From NCBI GenBank assembly GCA_029565535.1, contig JAKQNZ010000095.1:1-41864 (forward strand): a stretch of 41,864 bases of DNA, given 5' to 3'. Shown piece after piece: positions 33,322-41,789 of the stretch. The notes under the pieces were generated by a model. The model searched no databases, was not told the origin of the DNA, and was given only the letters and a program-made list of their open reading frames with translations. The DNA comes from Candidatus Cloacimonadota bacterium. GTDB taxonomy: Bacteria; Cloacimonadota; Cloacimonadia; Cloacimonadales; Cloacimonadaceae. The position numbers and the translations under genes were made by a program. How positions within the stretch are numbered: position 1 is the first letter of the stretch; each line of letters begins with the position of its first letter.

Positions 33322-33966
33322 ATGGACGCTATCCCGATTATGACGCTAAAAAGACTGCCACAATATCTGGAAGCCATATACAAATTTAAACGGGCCGGCC
33401 TGAAAATGGTTTCGGCCACGAAAATTGCAGTATTTACTGACGTACATATGACCCAGGTTCGCAAGGACCTTGCATATACCGGAGTAGTGGGAACCCCCAA
33501 GGTGGGACATAAGATAGACGAATTGATCTCAGCGATCGAACAATGTTTGAACTGGAACGATGCCTCGTCCTGTTTTTTGGTTGGCGTAGGCCATCTGGGC
33601 AAGGCCTTGATGGGGTATTCAGAATTAAGCCGTAAAGGGCTAAGAATTATTGCTGCCTTCGATGTGAATCCAGAATTGGCCGGAACCGAACTGCATGAGA
33701 TACCAATATATAATGTAGATAAACTGAGCAACCTGCTTAATCGCCTGCATATTCATATCGGGATAATAACCACTCCTGCCGATGCGGCTCAGGAAGTAGC
33801 GGATCTGCTAGTGGCAAATGGTGTAATTGCGATCTGGAATTTTACTCCTGCCAAGCTCAATTTACCGGAAGAGGTGATTGTAGAAAACATAGATATGAGT
33901 TCATCCCTGGCTGTTCTCTCTCGCCGAGTGGCCGAAAAACTCTACCACCCCATTACCAGGAACTGA
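33322..33966 (+). CDS. rex: Redox-sensing transcriptional repressor Rex
   Basis: Dimeric DNA-binding protein that responds to the NADH/NAD+ ratio and represses fermentative and hydrogen-metabolism genes. The 214-residue protein has an N-terminal winged helix (about 6-80; LKRLPQYLEAIYKFKRAG, HMTQVRKDLAYTG) and a Rossmann domain with GVGHLG at 88-93 and an Asp (AAFDVNPEL) after strand 2. A domain-swapped C-terminal helix follows. It has its own AAGGAG site. The hydrogenase genes start 97 bases downstream, so Rex is the obvious candidate regulator of them, although no consensus Rex box is visible. Confidence 0.94.
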   Translation: MDAIPIMTLKRLPQYLEAIYKFKRAGLKMVSATKIAVFTDVHMTQVRKDLAYTGVVGTPKVGHKIDELISAIEQCLNWNDASSCFLVGVGHLGKALMGYSELSRKGLRIIAAFDVNPELAGTELHEIPIYNVDKLSNLLNRLHIHIGIITTPADAAQEVADLLVANGVIAIWNFTPAKLNLPEEVIVENIDMSSSLAVLSRRVAEKLYHPITRN

Positions 33967-34063: not shown

Positions 34064-34564
34064 ATGAGTGCGTCATACGCAGCAGCACACAGCTTCAACA
34101 AGGTTTTGGAGATACTGGATCGTTATGATCGTAGCGAAACCAAGATAATCCCCATCCTGCAGGCGGTTCAGGAAGAATACCGCTATCTTCCTCAGGAAGT
34201 GATGACCTTTATCGCCACCTCATTGGGTGTTTCACCAGCCCGATTATTTGGTGTGGCAACCTTTTACAGCCATTTTTCTCTGGAGCCGAAGGGAAAACAC
34301 ATCTTGAAAATGTGTGATGGCACAGCCTGCCACGTAAAGGGTTCTTTAGCGGTGATCGAAGCCATCCGTAAACGTTTGAACTTGACGGCCAAAAAGATCA
34401 CGACAGACGACATGATGTATACTTTTGAAACGGTGTCCTGCCTGGGGGCTTGTGGGTTGGCTCCTGTTCTGGTTGTGGATGACGAGGTCCATGGACAGGT
34501 AACGCCCGAACAAGCGCTGCAACTTATCGAAAAGATCGAAACTGAGGAGAAGGAAAATGCTTAA
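34064..34564 (+). CDS. hydC: [FeFe] hydrogenase subunit HydC / NuoE-like [2Fe-2S] protein
   Basis: 166 residues: an N-terminal helical bundle (about 10-70, IIPILQAVQEEYRYLP, FGVATFYSHF) and a thioredoxin-like [2Fe-2S] domain with ligands C84, C89, C126 and C130 (CDGTAC ... CLGAC). This is the NuoE/24-kDa type found as the gamma subunit of trimeric hydrogenases. The start has TAGGAG upstream. It overlaps the next gene by eight bases, so the two subunits are translated together. It acts in the cytoplasm as part of HydABC. Confidence 0.93.
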   Translation: MSASYAAAHSFNKVLEILDRYDRSETKIIPILQAVQEEYRYLPQEVMTFIATSLGVSPARLFGVATFYSHFSLEPKGKHILKMCDGTACHVKGSLAVIEAIRKRLNLTAKKITTDDMMYTFETVSCLGACGLAPVLVVDDEVHGQVTPEQALQLIEKIETEEKENA

Positions 34565-36449
34565 TCTGGAACTGGTCCGCGAATCCTACAATCAAGCCAG
34601 GTCGCTCTGTAAAAAGCGAATCGTGGTTTGCGCCGGCACAGGCTGCATTGCCAATGGCTCGCTTAAGGTTTTTGAAAGCCTGAAAAACTCGATCGCCCTG
34701 AGAGGTCTGGATATCACTGTATCCCTAAAATCCGAGGATCAAAATAATCTGAAAGAACACGATGTATATATGATTGGCAGTGGGTGTCAGGGATTTTGCC
34801 AGGTTGGTCCGCTGGTCACCATAGAACCAGCTGGAATAATGTATGGCCACGTAAAACCTGAAGACGCGGAAGAAATCGTGGAGAAATCAATCCTGAAGGA
34901 CGACCCAATAGAAAGGCTGCTTTACCACGATCCCGTAAGCGGGAAGGCCTATAAGGGAACTGCCGAGATCCCTTTCTATACACGCCAAAGCCGAACCGGA
35001 CTAAAGGACTGTGGTCACGTAGATCCGGAAAACATCAGCGAATACATAGCTCACGGGGGATACTTTGCAGCCCGTGATGCTTATCTGAATTACGACTCGG
35101 AACAGATATGCAAATTGTACCAGGAGAGCGGGCTCCGTGGAAGAGGTGGAGGCGGATTCTCTACTGGCTTGAAGTGGGAATTTGCCCGTCGGGAAATGAA
35201 TGATAAGAAATACGTGATTTGCAATGGTGACGAAGGCGATCCAGGTGCTTTCATGGACAGGTCGATATTGGAAGGCAATCCACACAGTGTAATCGAAGGG
35301 ATGATGATCGCCGCTGCCGCCATCGGAGCTGACGAGGGATATGTATATGTAAGGATGGAGTATCCTCTGGCCTGTAGCAGGATCAGAAAGGCCATCCAGA
35401 CAGCTGAAAGTTATGGCATACTAGGTGATAATGTGTTTGGAAGCGGTAAGAGCTTTCGGATAAACGTAATGGAAGGGGCTGGTGCGTTTGTTTGCGGAGA
35501 AGAAACGGCGCTGTTGGCATCCATCGAAGGTAAGCGCGGTATGCCCAACCCCAAGCCTCCTTTCCCTGCTCAAAAAGGTTTGTTTGGCAAACCAACCGTT
35601 ATAAATAACGTGGAGACCCTGGCCCTGGTGCCTGTGGTACTGCGTGATGGTGTGCAAAAATTTCGCAGCTTGGGAACAGATAAATCTCCAGGGACAAAGA
35701 CTTTTGCTCTTACTGGTCATGTTGCAAACACCGGGCTGATCGAAGTTCCTTTTGGCACTACAATCAGGGAAATCGTGTTTGAGATTGGCGGGGGAGTTTT
35801 AGACAAGGACGGCAAGATTAACAACGATTCTTTCAAAGCAGTGCAGATTGGCGGCCCCAGTGGTGGCTGCCTAACCAGCGAACATCTTGATTTTCCCCTG
35901 GACTTCGATTCATTGGGCCAGATTGGAGCCATGGTTGGCTCTGGAGGAATGGTGGTGATGAACGACAGTACTTGCATGGTGGAAACAGCGCGCTATTTCA
36001 TGACCTTTACCCAGCATGAATCATGTGGTAAATGCGTTCCCTGTCGCGAAGGAACCCGGCAAATGCTGGAAATGCTGGAGGATATAGTGGCAGGAGAAGG
36101 TACGGAAGAAACCCTGGATTTGCTTCAGGAAGCAGGTGAAGCAGTGAAGATAACATCTCTTTGCGGTCTGGGAAAATCCGCGCCCAACCCGGTACTATCT
36201 ACTTTGCGTTATTTCAGATCTGAATACGAAGCTCATGTGAATGCGAAGTATTGCCCCACCAAATCCTGTAAAGCGCTTACTCCAATCTCGATCGATCCAG
36301 AGCTCTGCAAAGGCTGTACCCTTTGCAAAAGAGTTTGTCCGGTTGGAGCCATAAGCGGAGAAGTAAAGAAAGCTCACAGCATAGACCCTTTGGTCTGCGT
36401 TAAATGCGGCGCTTGTGTAGCAACCTGCAAGTTCAAAGCCATCAGTTAA
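34557..36449 (+). CDS. hydB: [FeFe] hydrogenase subunit HydB / NuoF-like flavoprotein
   Basis: NAD(H)- and FMN-binding subunit. In order: an N-terminal thioredoxin-like [2Fe-2S] domain (C25, C30, C77, C81), the NuoF core with GRGGGGFSTGLKW near 195 (NADH/FMN site) and NGDEGDPGAFMDRS, a [4Fe-4S] site with CGKCVPC at 490-496, and a C-terminal double [4Fe-4S] ferredoxin (C584, C587, C590, C594 and a second set around 613-623). The 630 residues and the domain order fit HydB of electron-bifurcating hydrogenases, which couple NADH and reduced ferredoxin to H2. Bifurcation itself is inferred from the family. Confidence 0.95.
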   Translation: MLNLELVRESYNQARSLCKKRIVVCAGTGCIANGSLKVFESLKNSIALRGLDITVSLKSEDQNNLKEHDVYMIGSGCQGFCQVGPLVTIEPAGIMYGHVKPEDAEEIVEKSILKDDPIERLLYHDPVSGKAYKGTAEIPFYTRQSRTGLKDCGHVDPENISEYIAHGGYFAARDAYLNYDSEQICKLYQESGLRGRGGGGFSTGLKWEFARREMNDKKYVICNGDEGDPGAFMDRSILEGNPHSVIEGMMIAAAAIGADEGYVYVRMEYPLACSRIRKAIQTAESYGILGDNVFGSGKSFRINVMEGAGAFVCGEETALLASIEGKRGMPNPKPPFPAQKGLFGKPTVINNVETLALVPVVLRDGVQKFRSLGTDKSPGTKTFALTGHVANTGLIEVPFGTTIREIVFEIGGGVLDKDGKINNDSFKAVQIGGPSGGCLTSEHLDFPLDFDSLGQIGAMVGSGGMVVMNDSTCMVETARYFMTFTQHESCGKCVPCREGTRQMLEMLEDIVAGEGTEETLDLLQEAGEAVKITSLCGLGKSAPNPVLSTLRYFRSEYEAHVNAKYCPTKSCKALTPISIDPELCKGCTLCKRVCPVGAISGEVKKAHSIDPLVCVKCGACVATCKFKAIS

Positions 36450-36462
36450 TAGGGAGATTATC

Positions 36463-38463
36463 ATGGAAAAATATGTATATATAAACGACAGGCCTATCCT
36501 CTGGGAGGGCGAAACCAATATCCTTGCCCTGGCGCGTAAAGCCCATATCGAGATTCCTACTTTTTGCTACCATAGCGACCTCAGTATCTATGGCGCATGC
36601 CGGCTTTGCATGGTGGAACTGGAAGGTAGGGGGCTGGTAACCTCATGTTCTACAGAGCCTTTTGAGGGTATGAGGATCAAAACGCATACTGACCAGATAC
36701 TGAAGCTTCGGAAAACCATCGTGGAGATGCTGCTGGCCAATCATGACCAGGAATGCACGAAATGCAGTAGAGCTTCCGACTGCAAATTGCGCGACCTTTC
36801 AAACCGGCTAAGCATTGACAAGGTTAGATTTCGCCAAACCCGCGAACGCAAGCCGAAAGACCTGGGCAGCGAGTCATTGGTAAGAGATCCAAACAAATGC
36901 GTTCTCTGTGGGGATTGCGTAAGGTTCTGCTCAGAAATTCAAGGCATTGGTGCCATCGATTTTGCAGCGAGGGGGCAGAATGTAAATGTAGCTGCTGCAT
37001 ATGGAAAAAGCCTTTCTCAGGTGGATTGCGTGAATTGCGGTCAATGCGCCGCAGTTTGCCCTACAGGCGCGATTACTGTAAAAAGCCACATTCCTCAAGT
37101 TTGGGATGCCATTCACAGTGCAGACAAGTATGTAGTTGCCCAGATAGCTCCTGCAGTAAGGGTAGCTTTGGGCGAGATGTTCAACCTTCCCTCTTGTGAT
37201 CTGACTACTGGCAAGATGGTTGCCGCAATGCGCATACTGGGCTTTCAAAAAGTATTCGACACTGCTTTTTCGGCAGACCTGACTGTGGTGGAGGAAGCCA
37301 ACGAGTTTATCGCTCGTAAATCCCGGGGCGAAAAACTCCCCATTTTCACCTCTTGCTGTCCTGCTTGGGTAAAATATGCAGAGCAGAGCTACCCTCAGCT
37401 TCTGGAGAATCTTTCCAGTTGCCGGTCCCCGCAGCAGATGTTTGGCTCCATCGCCAAGGAAAGGCTTCCAAAGCAACTGAATGTGGAAAAGGAAAAGCTT
37501 TTCGTGGTCTCGATTATGCCTTGCACCGCAAAAAAATACGAATGTAAAAGACCCGAGTTCGTACATGATGGAATCGCCGACGTCGATGTGGTAATCACTA
37601 CTCAGGAACTGGGAAAAATGATTAAAGAAGCTGGTATCGACATTGCTTCCCTGGAGCCAGAATCAATGGATTTACCCATGGGCTTCGCAACTGGTGCGGG
37701 AGTAATCTTTGGAAATAGCGGTGGCGTTAGTGAAGCAGTTTTGCGCTATGCCGCAGATAAATTCCAGATTCCTGTTCCCGAGAACATCGTTTTGCAGGAA
37801 GTGCGTGGCACATCCGGTTTACGTGAAGCAAGCCTGGCAGACGGAAATCTGCGGATGGCAGTAGTGCATGGCTTGAAAAATGCCCAGGAACTATGTGATA
37901 AGATAATTAACGGCGAAGCGGAATATGACATAGTGGAAGTAATGGCCTGTCCTGGAGGTTGCACAGGTGGTGCAGGACAACCGATAGTGCAATCAGCCAA
38001 ACAACGCAAAGACAGAACCACCTCCATCTATCACGCAGATAGGGCCATGCCGATGCACCGGGCTCAGGATAATCCCTTTATCAATGAGCTATACAGCGCT
38101 TTGCTCGATAAACCGAACAGCCACAAAGCCCATGAATTGCTGCATACCGCATATAAACACCGTAAACGCATCGATGACGACGAACTGAGTCTATCCGGTG
38201 CGGGTTCCGAGGACAGATGTAAAGTAAGGGTTTGCGTTGGAACCTCTTGCTACCTGCGTGGGTCTCAGGATATTCTGGCCAAAACCCTGAAAATGGTCGA
38301 AGAAAACGCTTGGGGAAATCGCTTTGACATAGGTGCTACTTTCTGCAGTGAGAAATGCGACAAAGGCCCCACCATCTGCATTGGAGACAAGGTGATTCAT
38401 CACGCCAACCTAAAGGAAGTAAAAGAGATGATTACCAAACACGCCGAAGCGAGAGAAAAATGA
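36463..38463 (+). CDS. hydA: [FeFe] hydrogenase catalytic subunit HydA
   Basis: Cytoplasmic H2-producing or -consuming subunit. In order: plant-type [2Fe-2S] (C35, C46, C49, C62), His-Cys [4Fe-4S] site (H94, C98, C101, C107), a double [4Fe-4S] ferredoxin (CVLCGDCVRFC, CVNCGQCAAVC), and the H-cluster domain with L1 TSCCPAW at 296-302, L2 MPCTAKKYE at 352-360 and L3 MACPGGCTGGAGQP at 494-507. A C-terminal thioredoxin-like [2Fe-2S] domain follows (CVGTSC ... CSEKC). All catalytic cysteines, including the proton-transfer cysteine of L1 (C298), are present. The 666 residues fit the group A bifurcating type. No hydE/F/G maturases are in the window. Confidence 0.96.
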   Translation: MEKYVYINDRPILWEGETNILALARKAHIEIPTFCYHSDLSIYGACRLCMVELEGRGLVTSCSTEPFEGMRIKTHTDQILKLRKTIVEMLLANHDQECTKCSRASDCKLRDLSNRLSIDKVRFRQTRERKPKDLGSESLVRDPNKCVLCGDCVRFCSEIQGIGAIDFAARGQNVNVAAAYGKSLSQVDCVNCGQCAAVCPTGAITVKSHIPQVWDAIHSADKYVVAQIAPAVRVALGEMFNLPSCDLTTGKMVAAMRILGFQKVFDTAFSADLTVVEEANEFIARKSRGEKLPIFTSCCPAWVKYAEQSYPQLLENLSSCRSPQQMFGSIAKERLPKQLNVEKEKLFVVSIMPCTAKKYECKRPEFVHDGIADVDVVITTQELGKMIKEAGIDIASLEPESMDLPMGFATGAGVIFGNSGGVSEAVLRYAADKFQIPVPENIVLQEVRGTSGLREASLADGNLRMAVVHGLKNAQELCDKIINGEAEYDIVEVMACPGGCTGGAGQPIVQSAKQRKDRTTSIYHADRAMPMHRAQDNPFINELYSALLDKPNSHKAHELLHTAYKHRKRIDDDELSLSGAGSEDRCKVRVCVGTSCYLRGSQDILAKTLKMVEENAWGNRFDIGATFCSEKCDKGPTICIGDKVIHHANLKEVKEMITKHAEAREK

Positions 38464-38702
38464 CCACGATCCACATCTGCATGGGCAGTTCCTGCTTTGC
38501 CAGGGAGAACAGGGAAAACCTGAGAGTGATAGAGGACTATCTGAGAGCCAATGGGATGACAGATAGCGTTCATATCGAAGGTTCGCTATGCATGGGTGAA
38601 TGCTCACGCGGACCAAATATCACCATAAACGGAAATCCATATTATGAGGTTCATTCTGAGGATTTACCGTCTATCCTTGATAAAGAGCTGTTGCAAATAT
38701 GA
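38460..38702 (+). CDS. Small thioredoxin-like [2Fe-2S] ferredoxin between the two hydrogenase genes
   Basis: The start is ATG at 38460, overlapping the hydA stop by four bases (ATGA); a longer upstream frame only shadows hydA. The 80-residue protein is one thioredoxin-like [2Fe-2S] domain with C7, C12, C44 and C48 (CX4C, CX3C). The same spacing occurs in HydC, the HydB N-terminus and the HydA C-terminus, and the sequence around it (CMGSSCFARENRENL, LCMGECSRGPNITI) is most like the HydA tail. It overlaps the sensor gene by four bases. It probably carries electrons to or from the downstream hydrogenase-like protein. Confidence 0.9.
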   Translation: MTTIHICMGSSCFARENRENLRVIEDYLRANGMTDSVHIEGSLCMGECSRGPNITINGNPYYEVHSEDLPSILDKELLQI

Positions 38703-40390
38703 ATGACCAAAAACCGATCTACACCGAAAAAACTGAATGTCAGGATTGCTACAAATGTGTCAGGGGTTGCCCCGTGAAAGCCATTCGCGTTGTATCTGGT
38801 TCCGCTCAGGTGATTCCCGAAGCCTGCATCCTATGTGGCCATTGCACAGAAGTATGCCCTGTGGGAGCCAAGAAAATACGTAATGACCTCGGCGAAGCTA
38901 TAAGGCTGTTGAAAAGCAAGAAACAGGTATTTGTTTCTCTGGCACCTTCCTACAGAACAGAATTCAGCGGGATCGACAGCGCTAAGTTGATCGCGGCTAT
39001 CCTGGAGCTTGGCTTTTTCGGGGTGTCGGAAACAGCATTGGGGGCACAGGTGGTTTCGGCCGCCTGTGCCGACCTGCTTTACAGGGAAGCTGGTTCCATC
39101 CAGATTTCTTCTGCTTGCCCCAGTGTTATCCACCTGATCGAGCAATACTATCCGCATCTGGTAAAATACATTACTCCGGTTGTTTCGCCCCTGCAAGCTC
39201 ATAGCAAGCTACTGAAAGCTGAATATGGTGATGAGGTTGGAATAGTGTTCATTGGCCCTTGCGTAGCCAAAAAAAACGAAACCAAGGATATCTTCGATGT
39301 AGCTCTTACCTTTAGTGATCTACGCCGTTGGTTCAATCTAAAAAGTATCGATTGGAATGCGCTGCCTTCGGGGTATGGCTTTTTGCCGTTTTCTGCTGCT
39401 GAGGGAGGGCTGTATCCCATCGATGGAGGAATGATTGACGGAATCAAATGCTGTAATCCGCCCCAAAACACTCTCTTCATGAGTTTCTCTGGGGTTCAGG
39501 ATATCGTAGAGGCTCTGGAAGAACTTGATTCAAGGCATCTGGATCGTCCGGTTTTCATTGAAACTCTGGCTTGTCCGGGTGGCTGCGTGAATGGCCCCGG
39601 GGTTAGTAAACGTGGTTCAACTGCACAGAAACGATATAGGGTTCAAACAGAAACTCCACCTCCCGAGCAAAGAGATTTGCATGCAATTCCCAACATCAGT
39701 GCTACCTATTCCAGCCGCGAAATTGTACAGGAGAGGCATAGCAAATCCGAGATAGCTGAAGCCCTGCTGAAGATTGGCAAGAAACGGGGAGAGGATGAAC
39801 TGAACTGCGGGGGTTGCGGCTATGATAGCTGCAGGGACTTTGCCTGTGCGCTCATCGAAGCTAAGGCTGAGCCGGCAATGTGTGTATCCTATTTGCGCAA
39901 GCTTGCGCAGAATAAAGCAGCTGCTCTCATCAAGGCGATGCCTTCGGGAGTGGTAATCGTAGATCAACACCTGCAGATCGTAGAATCAAATGCCCCATTT
40001 ATCAGTATCATTGGCGGCGATGCGGCGATCGTTTCTGAAGCGGATCCTGATTTGGAAGGCGCATATCTGGAGCGTCTGATACCGTTTCATGGTCTTTTCG
40101 CCGACGCCATCCAGGATGGTACAGAAGTTCAGATTCAGGACATCCGCTACAATGGGAAAATTATTCGGCTTACCCTCTTCTCGATCCAGAAACACATCCT
40201 GCTGGGGGGTATCTTGCAGGATATCACGGAGCCGGTTATCCAGCGGGAACAGATTATCGAAAAAGCCCAGGAAGTTATGCGCAAAAACCTCACTACTGTC
40301 CAGCAGATAGCTTTTTTACTTGGTGAAAACGCTGCCGATAGCGAAGTGCTGCTTTCCTCAATCGTGCAGAGTTTTTCTAGCAAGGATTGA
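38699..40390 (+). CDS. Group-C-like (sensory) [FeFe] hydrogenase with Fe-S and PAS domains
   Basis: 563 residues. A double [4Fe-4S] ferredoxin (C14, C17, C20, C24; C43, C46, C49, C53) leads into an H-cluster domain with L1 ISSACPS (A139, C140), L2 GPCVAKK (C188) and L3 LACPGGC (C292, C296). A further four-cysteine Fe-S motif follows (CGGCGYDSC ... MC, about 365-390), then a PAS domain (about 400-515). The first of the two adjacent L1 cysteines, which relays protons in catalytic enzymes, is alanine, while cluster ligands remain. This matches HydS/HfsB-type proteins proposed as H2 sensors. Gene order with a PP2C phosphatase downstream also fits that class. Activity is an inference. Confidence 0.9.
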   Translation: MNDQKPIYTEKTECQDCYKCVRGCPVKAIRVVSGSAQVIPEACILCGHCTEVCPVGAKKIRNDLGEAIRLLKSKKQVFVSLAPSYRTEFSGIDSAKLIAAILELGFFGVSETALGAQVVSAACADLLYREAGSIQISSACPSVIHLIEQYYPHLVKYITPVVSPLQAHSKLLKAEYGDEVGIVFIGPCVAKKNETKDIFDVALTFSDLRRWFNLKSIDWNALPSGYGFLPFSAAEGGLYPIDGGMIDGIKCCNPPQNTLFMSFSGVQDIVEALEELDSRHLDRPVFIETLACPGGCVNGPGVSKRGSTAQKRYRVQTETPPPEQRDLHAIPNISATYSSREIVQERHSKSEIAEALLKIGKKRGEDELNCGGCGYDSCRDFACALIEAKAEPAMCVSYLRKLAQNKAAALIKAMPSGVVIVDQHLQIVESNAPFISIIGGDAAIVSEADPDLEGAYLERLIPFHGLFADAIQDGTEVQIQDIRYNGKIIRLTLFSIQKHILLGGILQDITEPVIQREQIIEKAQEVMRKNLTTVQQIAFLLGENAADSEVLLSSIVQSFSSKD

Positions 40391-40393
40391 TCA

Positions 40394-41569
40394 ATGGCGG
40401 ATTACTTTCTCGAAGCGGACTACTACCAAATCTGCAAAAATGGCTACCAGGCTTGTGGAGATAGCTTTTACAGCATCAAAAACCAGGATCGGCTCGTGAG
40501 TGTGCTTGCCGATGGTTTGGGGAGCGGAATTAAAGCAAGTGTATTGGCAACCCTTACTACCACCATGGCGGCTGGATTCATCTCTTCCCGTATGGATATC
40601 AAGAGGGCAGCCGAAGTGATTCTGGAAACACTGCCTGTTTGCTCTTCCCGTCATATTGGATACAGCACCTTTACGATCATAGATGCGGGTTTTGACGGTC
40701 GCTTGCGAATAATCGAGCACGATAACCCTCCTTACGCCTTTGTCAGAGATGGCCGGATAATGCCGGTGATAAAGCAGGAGATACCCATAAAGAGCTTTCG
40801 TAAAAGCCATTTGTATTATTCTGAGCTCGAATTGCAACCTGAGGATCGAGTTCTGTACTATTCTGACGGAGTTAGCCAAGCCGGGATGGGGCTTCCGCAT
40901 CTACCCCTGGGCTGGCAGGAAAAACGCGTGGAAGATTATATCCTTGGCCTTGTGCAAAAAAACTGCCGGATTTCAGCGGGGCAAATCAGCAAAGACATTG
41001 CGCAAAAAGCCTGTGAATATGATGGATACAAAGCAGCCGACGATATAACCTGTGCTGCGCTATACTTCCGTAATCCGCGCAGAACTATTGTTTTTACCGG
41101 ACCTCCCTATAAAAAAGAACATGATGCCGTTCTGGCCGGAATTGCCAGAGAGTTTAGCGGAAAAAAGGTGATCTGTGGTGGAACAACCGCGGCTATCCTC
41201 TCCAGGGAATTGAATACCAGCATCCAAGTGAATCTGAAGGAAATCAAGGGAAATCTTGAAATCCCTCCCACTGCAAACATGGATGGCTTCGACTTGGTTA
41301 CCGAGGGCACGATTACTCTTTCTCGCTGTCTTAGCGCTTTGGAAGAGGATGCCAATCTGGATGCCATGCCGGAAAGCGCGGTTCGTAAACTCATGAAAAC
41401 CTTGCTCGATAGCGATATCATTGAATTTGTTGTGGGAACCAAAATCAACGACGCCCATCAAGACCCAGCTCTGCCCAAGGATTTGGAAATCCGTAGAAAT
41501 CTGATGAAACAATACTGCAAGGTGCTGGAAAAAAAATACTTGAAGTCTACAAGGATCGTGTTTGTATGA
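40394..41569 (+). CDS. SpoIIE/PP2C-family serine phosphatase with unassigned C-terminal region
   Basis: Likely output of the sensory hydrogenase. Residues 1-225 are a SpoIIE-type PP2C domain with metal-binding aspartates in CGDSF (D24), LADGLGSG (D40), YYSDGV (about 157) and ADDITC (about 216). Residues about 228-391 form a second region I cannot assign, with IVFTGPPYKKEHD, VICGGTTAAILSREL, DLVTEGTITLSR and FVVGTKINDAHQDP. There is no transmembrane or PAS segment, so input should come from a partner. It starts three bases after the hydrogenase-like gene. The phosphoprotein target (for example an anti-anti-sigma factor) is not in the window. Confidence 0.88.
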   Translation: MADYFLEADYYQICKNGYQACGDSFYSIKNQDRLVSVLADGLGSGIKASVLATLTTTMAAGFISSRMDIKRAAEVILETLPVCSSRHIGYSTFTIIDAGFDGRLRIIEHDNPPYAFVRDGRIMPVIKQEIPIKSFRKSHLYYSELELQPEDRVLYYSDGVSQAGMGLPHLPLGWQEKRVEDYILGLVQKNCRISAGQISKDIAQKACEYDGYKAADDITCAALYFRNPRRTIVFTGPPYKKEHDAVLAGIAREFSGKKVICGGTTAAILSRELNTSIQVNLKEIKGNLEIPPTANMDGFDLVTEGTITLSRCLSALEEDANLDAMPESAVRKLMKTLLDSDIIEFVVGTKINDAHQDPALPKDLEIRRNLMKQYCKVLEKKYLKSTRIVFV

Positions 41570-41688: not shown

Positions 41689-41738
41689 CCGGTATCATAC
41701 CACATTCATACCGGATGATCATGTGGTATGATTGTGGT
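41689..41738. repeat. Iterated palindrome built on GTGGTATGAT
   Basis: ATCATACCACAT (41694-41705) and ATGTGGTATGAT (41721-41732) form a perfect 12-base inverted repeat. A competing pair, CCGGTAT (41689-41695) and ATACCGG (41709-41715), overlaps it. The GTGGTATGAT unit is repeated directly right after the right arm. It looks like an operator array or cruciform site, not a terminator, as no T-run follows. Confidence 0.6.
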
Positions 41739-41789
41739 ATGATATACTCAAAACAGAGTGAAACCTGGGGCCTGGGGTTAAATACGTAA

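Follow-up and report, generated by a model that had tools for sequence, protein, structure and literature searches.

The window (the whole stretch of 41,864 nucleotides analysed here) carries, on its forward strand, an operon in which genes for an electron-bifurcating hydrogenase and Rex are accompanied by those for a sensory hydrogenase and a phosphatase with an additional C-terminal domain (CTD). The genes and features considered are the following:

33322-33966, forward strand: Rex redox-sensing repressor (Pfam, NCBIfam).
34064-38463, forward strand: hydC-hydB-hydA (34064-34564, 34557-36449 and 36463-38463), electron-bifurcating hydrogenase.
38460-38702, forward strand: small [2Fe-2S] thioredoxin-like protein of the same operon.
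38699-40390, forward strand: HydS, sensory group C-type [FeFe] hydrogenase (ferredoxin-like clusters, H-cluster domain, FeS domain PF04060, PAS domain).
39941-40378, forward strand: PAS domain and C-terminal helix of HydS, the proposed docking/output element.
40394-41569, forward strand: HfsC-type phosphatase (PP2C/SpoIIE plus CTD), an intact reading frame of 391 amino acids.
40394-41071, forward strand: PP2C (SpoIIE) phosphatase domain, residues 1-226 (Pfam, Foldseek, SpoIIE alignment).
41075-41566, forward strand: CTD, an alpha/beta domain undescribed in the libraries searched, residues 228-391, about 165 residues (AlphaFold2 model, 59-row alignment).
41096-41125, forward strand: CTD loop after strand 1, TGPPYKKEHD, residues 235-244 (conservation, DSSP).
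41174-41188, forward strand: CTD loop after strand 2, CGGTT, candidate phosphate-binding loop, residues 261-265 (conservation, DSSP, MgsA alignment).
41303-41317, forward strand: CTD loop after strand 5, EGTIT, residues 304-308 (conservation, DSSP).
41435-41449, forward strand: CTD loop after strand 6, GTKIN, residues 348-352 (conservation, DSSP).

Among the operon genes, hydC is matched by Pfam and NCBIfam families, and hydB and hydA are named by sequence and conserved gene order; the mechanically called frame 38355-38702 starts too early for the small [2Fe-2S] protein, whose likely start is the ATG at 38460. HydS has the features of a group C enzyme: an H-cluster domain (PF02906) and an extra FeS motif (PF04060), both above the Pfam cut-off, a PAS domain, matched only weakly (PAS_9, E 0.007), and loss of the second active-site cysteine, the prototypes' second Cys being replaced in SSACPS at residue 137. 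The helix after the PAS domain (window 40244-40378, residues 516-560) carries the strongly conserved sequence QxIAxLLGExxAxxE, which is a probable output motif and is unnamed in the literature examined. The phosphatase gene lies directly 3' of the HydS gene, with a gap of three bases. The order is the same in Ruminococcus albus and Monoglobus, where the two genes overlap by eight bases, and in Acetoanaerobium noterae the PP2C-CTD gene is about 0.9 Mb away from HydS.

A phosphatase accompanying a sensory hydrogenase is already known. HfsC, encoded in Thermoanaerobacterium hfsABCD, is homologous to serine phosphatases and accompanies a sensory [FeFe] hydrogenase with a PAS domain (PMC11837493), and the HydS cluster of R. 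albus likewise has such a phosphatase beside its sensory [FeFe] hydrogenase (PMC6776011). In the window, as in R. albus, the phosphatase gene comes immediately after that of a group C-type [FeFe] hydrogenase with a PAS domain; in the window, the operon partner is HydABC with Rex. The R. albus phosphatase aligns over 97% of the window protein, including the CTD, at 31% identity; the likeness to HfsC is one of gene context and description, the sequence comparison having been made with the R. albus homologue. The published accounts of HfsC and the R. albus phosphatase that were found describe the phosphatase only and make no mention of the CTD, subscription journals being thinly covered, so that an earlier description is possible.

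The N-terminal half of the protein is matched by PF07228 (SpoIIE) over residues 31-223 (E 1.8e-13, 51.3 bits against a cut-off of 25; 53.1 bits in the genome scan), and by the structures 3pu9 (TMt 0.80) and SpoIIE 5mqh/5ucg in Foldseek; profile and structure searches together give SpoIIE, RsbX and one Sphaerobacter phosphatase as its relatives. Residues D23, D40-G41, D158 and D216-D217 align with the metal-site positions of SpoIIE, where D628, G629, D746 and D795 are the metal residues (PMC5468089), and are retained by all homologues aligned over PP2C, for which reason the window phosphatase is probably active. The Bacillus subtilis SpoIIE belongs to the same phosphatase family (profile match to 3t91/5mqh, E about 4e-16), but the window protein lacks an N-terminal regulatory region ahead of PP2C, and the match stops at window residue 226, before the CTD. 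The last PP2C strand of the predicted model ends at this same residue, and a conserved domain follows, which bears out the earlier note's placing of a second region after a PP2C core ending near residue 225. The host genome, of 2.6 Mb, in which the window belongs to contig C6, encodes three further SpoIIE-type phosphatases. On contig C5 of the same genome, unlinked to the phosphatase, a STAS protein gene adjoins one for a fused receiver-HATPase_c_2 (RsbW-like) protein (L109:2584-3886, reverse strand); the pair is a candidate partner-switching module for SpoIIE-type phosphatases, with possible substrates, and because of the three other phosphatases it is not assignable to that of the window. 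Close to the window end, a short way 3' of the phosphatase gene, lies a 26-nt inverted repeat (41693-41744, spacer 0, 88% complementary), possibly a terminator or a mobile-element remnant.

The remaining part of the protein is a compact separate domain that is in no family library searched. The earlier note could name no similarity for this region, from which it quoted TGPPYKKEHD, ICGGTTAAIL and a third motif (residues 235-244, 260-269 and 346-358), and this held: the CTD of the window protein has no match above the curated Pfam or NCBIfam cut-offs, the CTDs of 55 homologues have only weak, scattered matches in these libraries (best E-values about 0.001-0.01), and a profile search against PDB sequences gave no match. 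Structure prediction and a fold search, proposed at the outset as a way of finding a well-known domain, gave a confident alpha/beta model (AlphaFold2, pLDDT 88.7, pTM 0.85, 56-row input alignment) with nothing in the PDB at E 1e-3 or better in Foldseek; comparison of the model with viral protein structures and a search of viral contigs also gave no match. In the 59-homologue alignment, which spans Cloacimonadota, Elusimicrobia and Clostridia, residues 225-391 can be aligned even where identity falls to 22-30%. Seven columns are invariant, and dN/dS of the CTD, where measurable, is 0.06-0.08; its conservation far exceeds chance.

When the alignment is mapped onto the AlphaFold2 model, the invariant residues concentrate in the loops after strands 1, 2, 5 and 6, where mean conservation is 0.59, against 0.43 in the remaining CTD. 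Only 206 of 20,000 random loop placements (1%) were as conserved, a figure that is a description and not a clean test, the four loops having been chosen with the alignment already in view. Conserved loops at strand ends are the usual look of a ligand pocket or active site and suggest one here; they could instead make a protein interface. With no confident structural homologue, it is this conservation pattern that argues for ligand binding, and the earlier suggestion that the CTD senses a ligand fits the pattern.

The distribution of the CTD bears on what drives the phosphatase. Among 125 Cloacimonadota genomes, the CTD and HydS are each found in 33, and both in 31. The two HydS-only cases are a genome of 59% completeness and a contig edge, and the two CTD-only genomes (G050 and G081), together with the second locus of G051, encode a PAS protein of 166-174 residues directly upstream of PP2C-CTD. 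These PAS-only proteins match just HydS residues 401-557 and, like HydS, have the strongly conserved QxIAxLLGExxAxxE helix at their end, with the LGE motif at the close of the PAS-terminal helix; they are a variant sensor without the H-cluster part. At their loci (L046:7021-7518, reverse strand; L050:1210-1731, forward strand; L052:7755-8264, reverse strand), the hydrogenase domain is absent and Rex and/or HydABC are in the same cluster. Firmicutes were sampled through three records of a plasmid collection. The PLSDB records NZ_CP154629.1 (L061) and NZ_AP026896.1 (L118) are labelled plasmids, measure 2.6 and 4.9 Mb and are probably chromosomes.

In a sample of 199 Elusimicrobia genomes, the CTD is found in 23, fused to PP2C in 13 and as a free gene only in the other 10; with three genomes having both forms, free CTD genes, of 150-160 residues, are present in 13. 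In the 10 free-only genomes, neither HydS nor a PP2C-CTD fusion was found, the best hydrogenase matches being frames of about 480 residues that cover HydS residues 19-304 only. Eight of the 13 free copies are directly after HydABC or at most two genes away, three are at a cinA locus and two are on contigs too short to tell. At the cinA locus, the order cinA-HydS-PP2C-CTD in G151 and G259 compares with cinA-CTD in G148 and G293, and this comparison of relatives indicates that HydS and PP2C were lost and the CTD kept, two gains being less likely. The distribution of free CTDs on the tree needs two state changes, the simplest account being that PP2C was lost twice independently. Five free copies give dN/dS values of 0.15-0.30 among themselves and are under purifying selection, which rules out a decaying remnant. 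In the Elusimicrobia loci L064:2067-2549, L073:5893-6369 and L079:6190-10894, HydS-PP2C-CTD or a free CTD is flanked by cinA on one side and, on the other, by a gene cluster that includes a NUDIX-like reading frame. An association of the CTD with the group C sensor, which the earlier note proposed to test, thus describes Cloacimonadota and breaks down in the 10 free-only Elusimicrobia genomes. Occurrence without hydrogenase neighbours, which was to count against a role for the domain beside the sensor, is frequent with respect to group C sensors and not with respect to hydrogenases in general, since most free CTDs still adjoin HydABC.

These data also bear on the idea that the sensory hydrogenase docks on the CTD and that HydS, once bound there, recruits or switches the phosphatase. 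In Cloacimonadota, the CTD nearly always occurs together with HydS and their genes are adjacent, as one would also expect if the CTD were the dock, and the phosphatase has no further domain to offer. Against this, the free CTDs exist in 10 genomes without HydS, and three loci retain PP2C-CTD with a PAS-only partner; the available precedent, moreover, places a PAS-helix input on the PP2C switch itself (PMC12143880). In RsbU, it is established that a sensor domain drives PP2C dimers via a helical linker, and the same is predicted for RsbP (PMC12143880). The window system resembles both in that a SpoIIE-type PP2C would be controlled, by way of a helical linker, from a PAS or sensor domain (PMC12143880). 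It differs in that the PAS domain and helix belong to another protein, HydS or a PAS-only one, and in the CTD at the C-terminus of the phosphatase. HydS ends in PAS plus helix and the adjoining phosphatase begins at once with PP2C; with PP2C-CTD preceded in some loci by a PAS-helix protein only, the PAS-helix of HydS appears as the natural phosphatase input, as in RsbP and RsbU, which weakens the earlier note's premise, the lack of any other input domain on the phosphatase. Taken together, the free CTDs without HydS and the PAS-only loci make the PAS-helix of HydS the likelier dock; the CTD is then most likely an input of its own that binds a ligand, and we regard docking on the CTD as unlikely.

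Alternatively, the CTD would bind the target in place of a ligand: it would keep the phosphatase, or just itself, attached to HydABC, Rex or a further product of the operon and serve there as adaptor or inhibitor. The eight of 13 stand-alone loci beside or near HydABC, and the placing of PP2C-CTD in one operon with HydABC in the window, are in keeping with such a role. The three free CTDs at the cinA locus are away from HydABC, however, and the R. albus PP2C-CTD adjoins HydS, AdhE and another hydrogenase and not HydABC, and we give this explanation, too, only a low probability.

Candidate fold relatives of the CTD were mostly rejected. FIST N (PF08495) reached 15.5 bits against a cut-off of 23.2, over 43 residues only, and appeared in four of 56 CTD members (best E 0.041); the UbiX flavoprotein fold was the top Foldseek match (E 2e-3) but at a TM of 0.33, and sirtuin-like proteins gave weak NCBIfam matches. 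For these last two, as for the RpiA-type fold suggested by the GGTT motif and the Rex-type Rossmann fold, profile comparison was null. The best weak lead, which is not an assignment, is the MGS-like superfamily (PF02142: MgsA, the CarB C-terminus and the PurH N-terminus). The methylglyoxal synthase (MGS) of Thermotoga maritima appeared among the Foldseek matches (probability 0.82, TM about 0.4 to the CTD model), and Escherichia coli MgsA was for this reason compared with the CTD profile, where it ranked top of 400 non-CTD proteins (28.1, runner-up 22.7). The MGS-family profile scores 25 against the CTD, similar to its score against its own relative PurH in the same program (25). The match centres on the GTT phosphate loop after strand 2, and the likeness, at scores of 25-28, takes in the strand-helix-strand-GTT-helix-strand order of the CTD first half. 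MgsA TGTT aligns with CGGTT of most fused CTDs, which in HydABC-linked free CTDs is mostly replaced by LGSST or CGSST, so that the ligand or function of these may differ. Of 14 single MGS sequences, few scored above background against the CTD profile, free CTDs alone did not match MGS, and CarB and PurH did not match the CTD; the MGS scores are below any family threshold. That the CTD is an enzyme of this superfamily, whose substrate would be a nucleotide or a phosphorylated three-carbon metabolite, is very improbable despite the MgsA rank, the GTT loop and the T. maritima match, given the low TM, the many MGS sequences at background, the absence from the CTD alignment of the catalytic motifs SGPxGGD and HxxD, which MGS sequences have, and the absence of PF02142 from the Pfam families listed for 56 CTD members.

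The reading that we prefer, tentatively and as one that may well be right or wrong, is that the PAS-helix of HydS docks on PP2C, that the CTD is a second ligand-binding input, and that the free CTD is a stand-alone regulator. HydS would control the phosphatase through its PAS domain and C-terminal helix docked onto the PP2C switch, the pair amounting to the PAS-linker-PP2C device of RsbP divided between two proteins. The CTD would bind a small metabolite, probably phosphorylated or nucleotide-like, at its strand ends and, as a second input, would let metabolism adjust the phosphatase. In genomes that lost HydS and PP2C, the CTD would have been kept as a stand-alone regulator, mostly near the bifurcating hydrogenase operon. 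The points that we infer are PAS-helix docking, ligand binding, which way the effect goes and what the phosphatase acts on.

Three things seem to be new: the delimited CTD, for which the libraries have no entry, the CTD encoded as a free gene, and the variant with a PAS-only protein. With this, the half of the HydS-linked phosphatase that lacked a description is defined, and the likely dock, the PAS-helix of HydS, is told apart from the likely second input, the CTD, of which the free form of 150 residues is suited to purification and ligand screening. In the hfs system, ethanol rises when hfsA or hfsB is deleted, and flux is diverted to lactate when hfsC or hfsD is deleted (PMC5707799, PMC11837493). 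It is conceivable, although we consider it rather doubtful, that the CTD founds a new metabolite-sensing family of hydrogen metabolism, which would bring a second signal into H2-sensing phosphatases and, in its free form, regulate the bifurcating hydrogenase alone after loss of sensor and phosphatase. The findings bear on the route from H2 sensing by HydS/HfsB to gene expression and to the partition of flux between ethanol and acetate.
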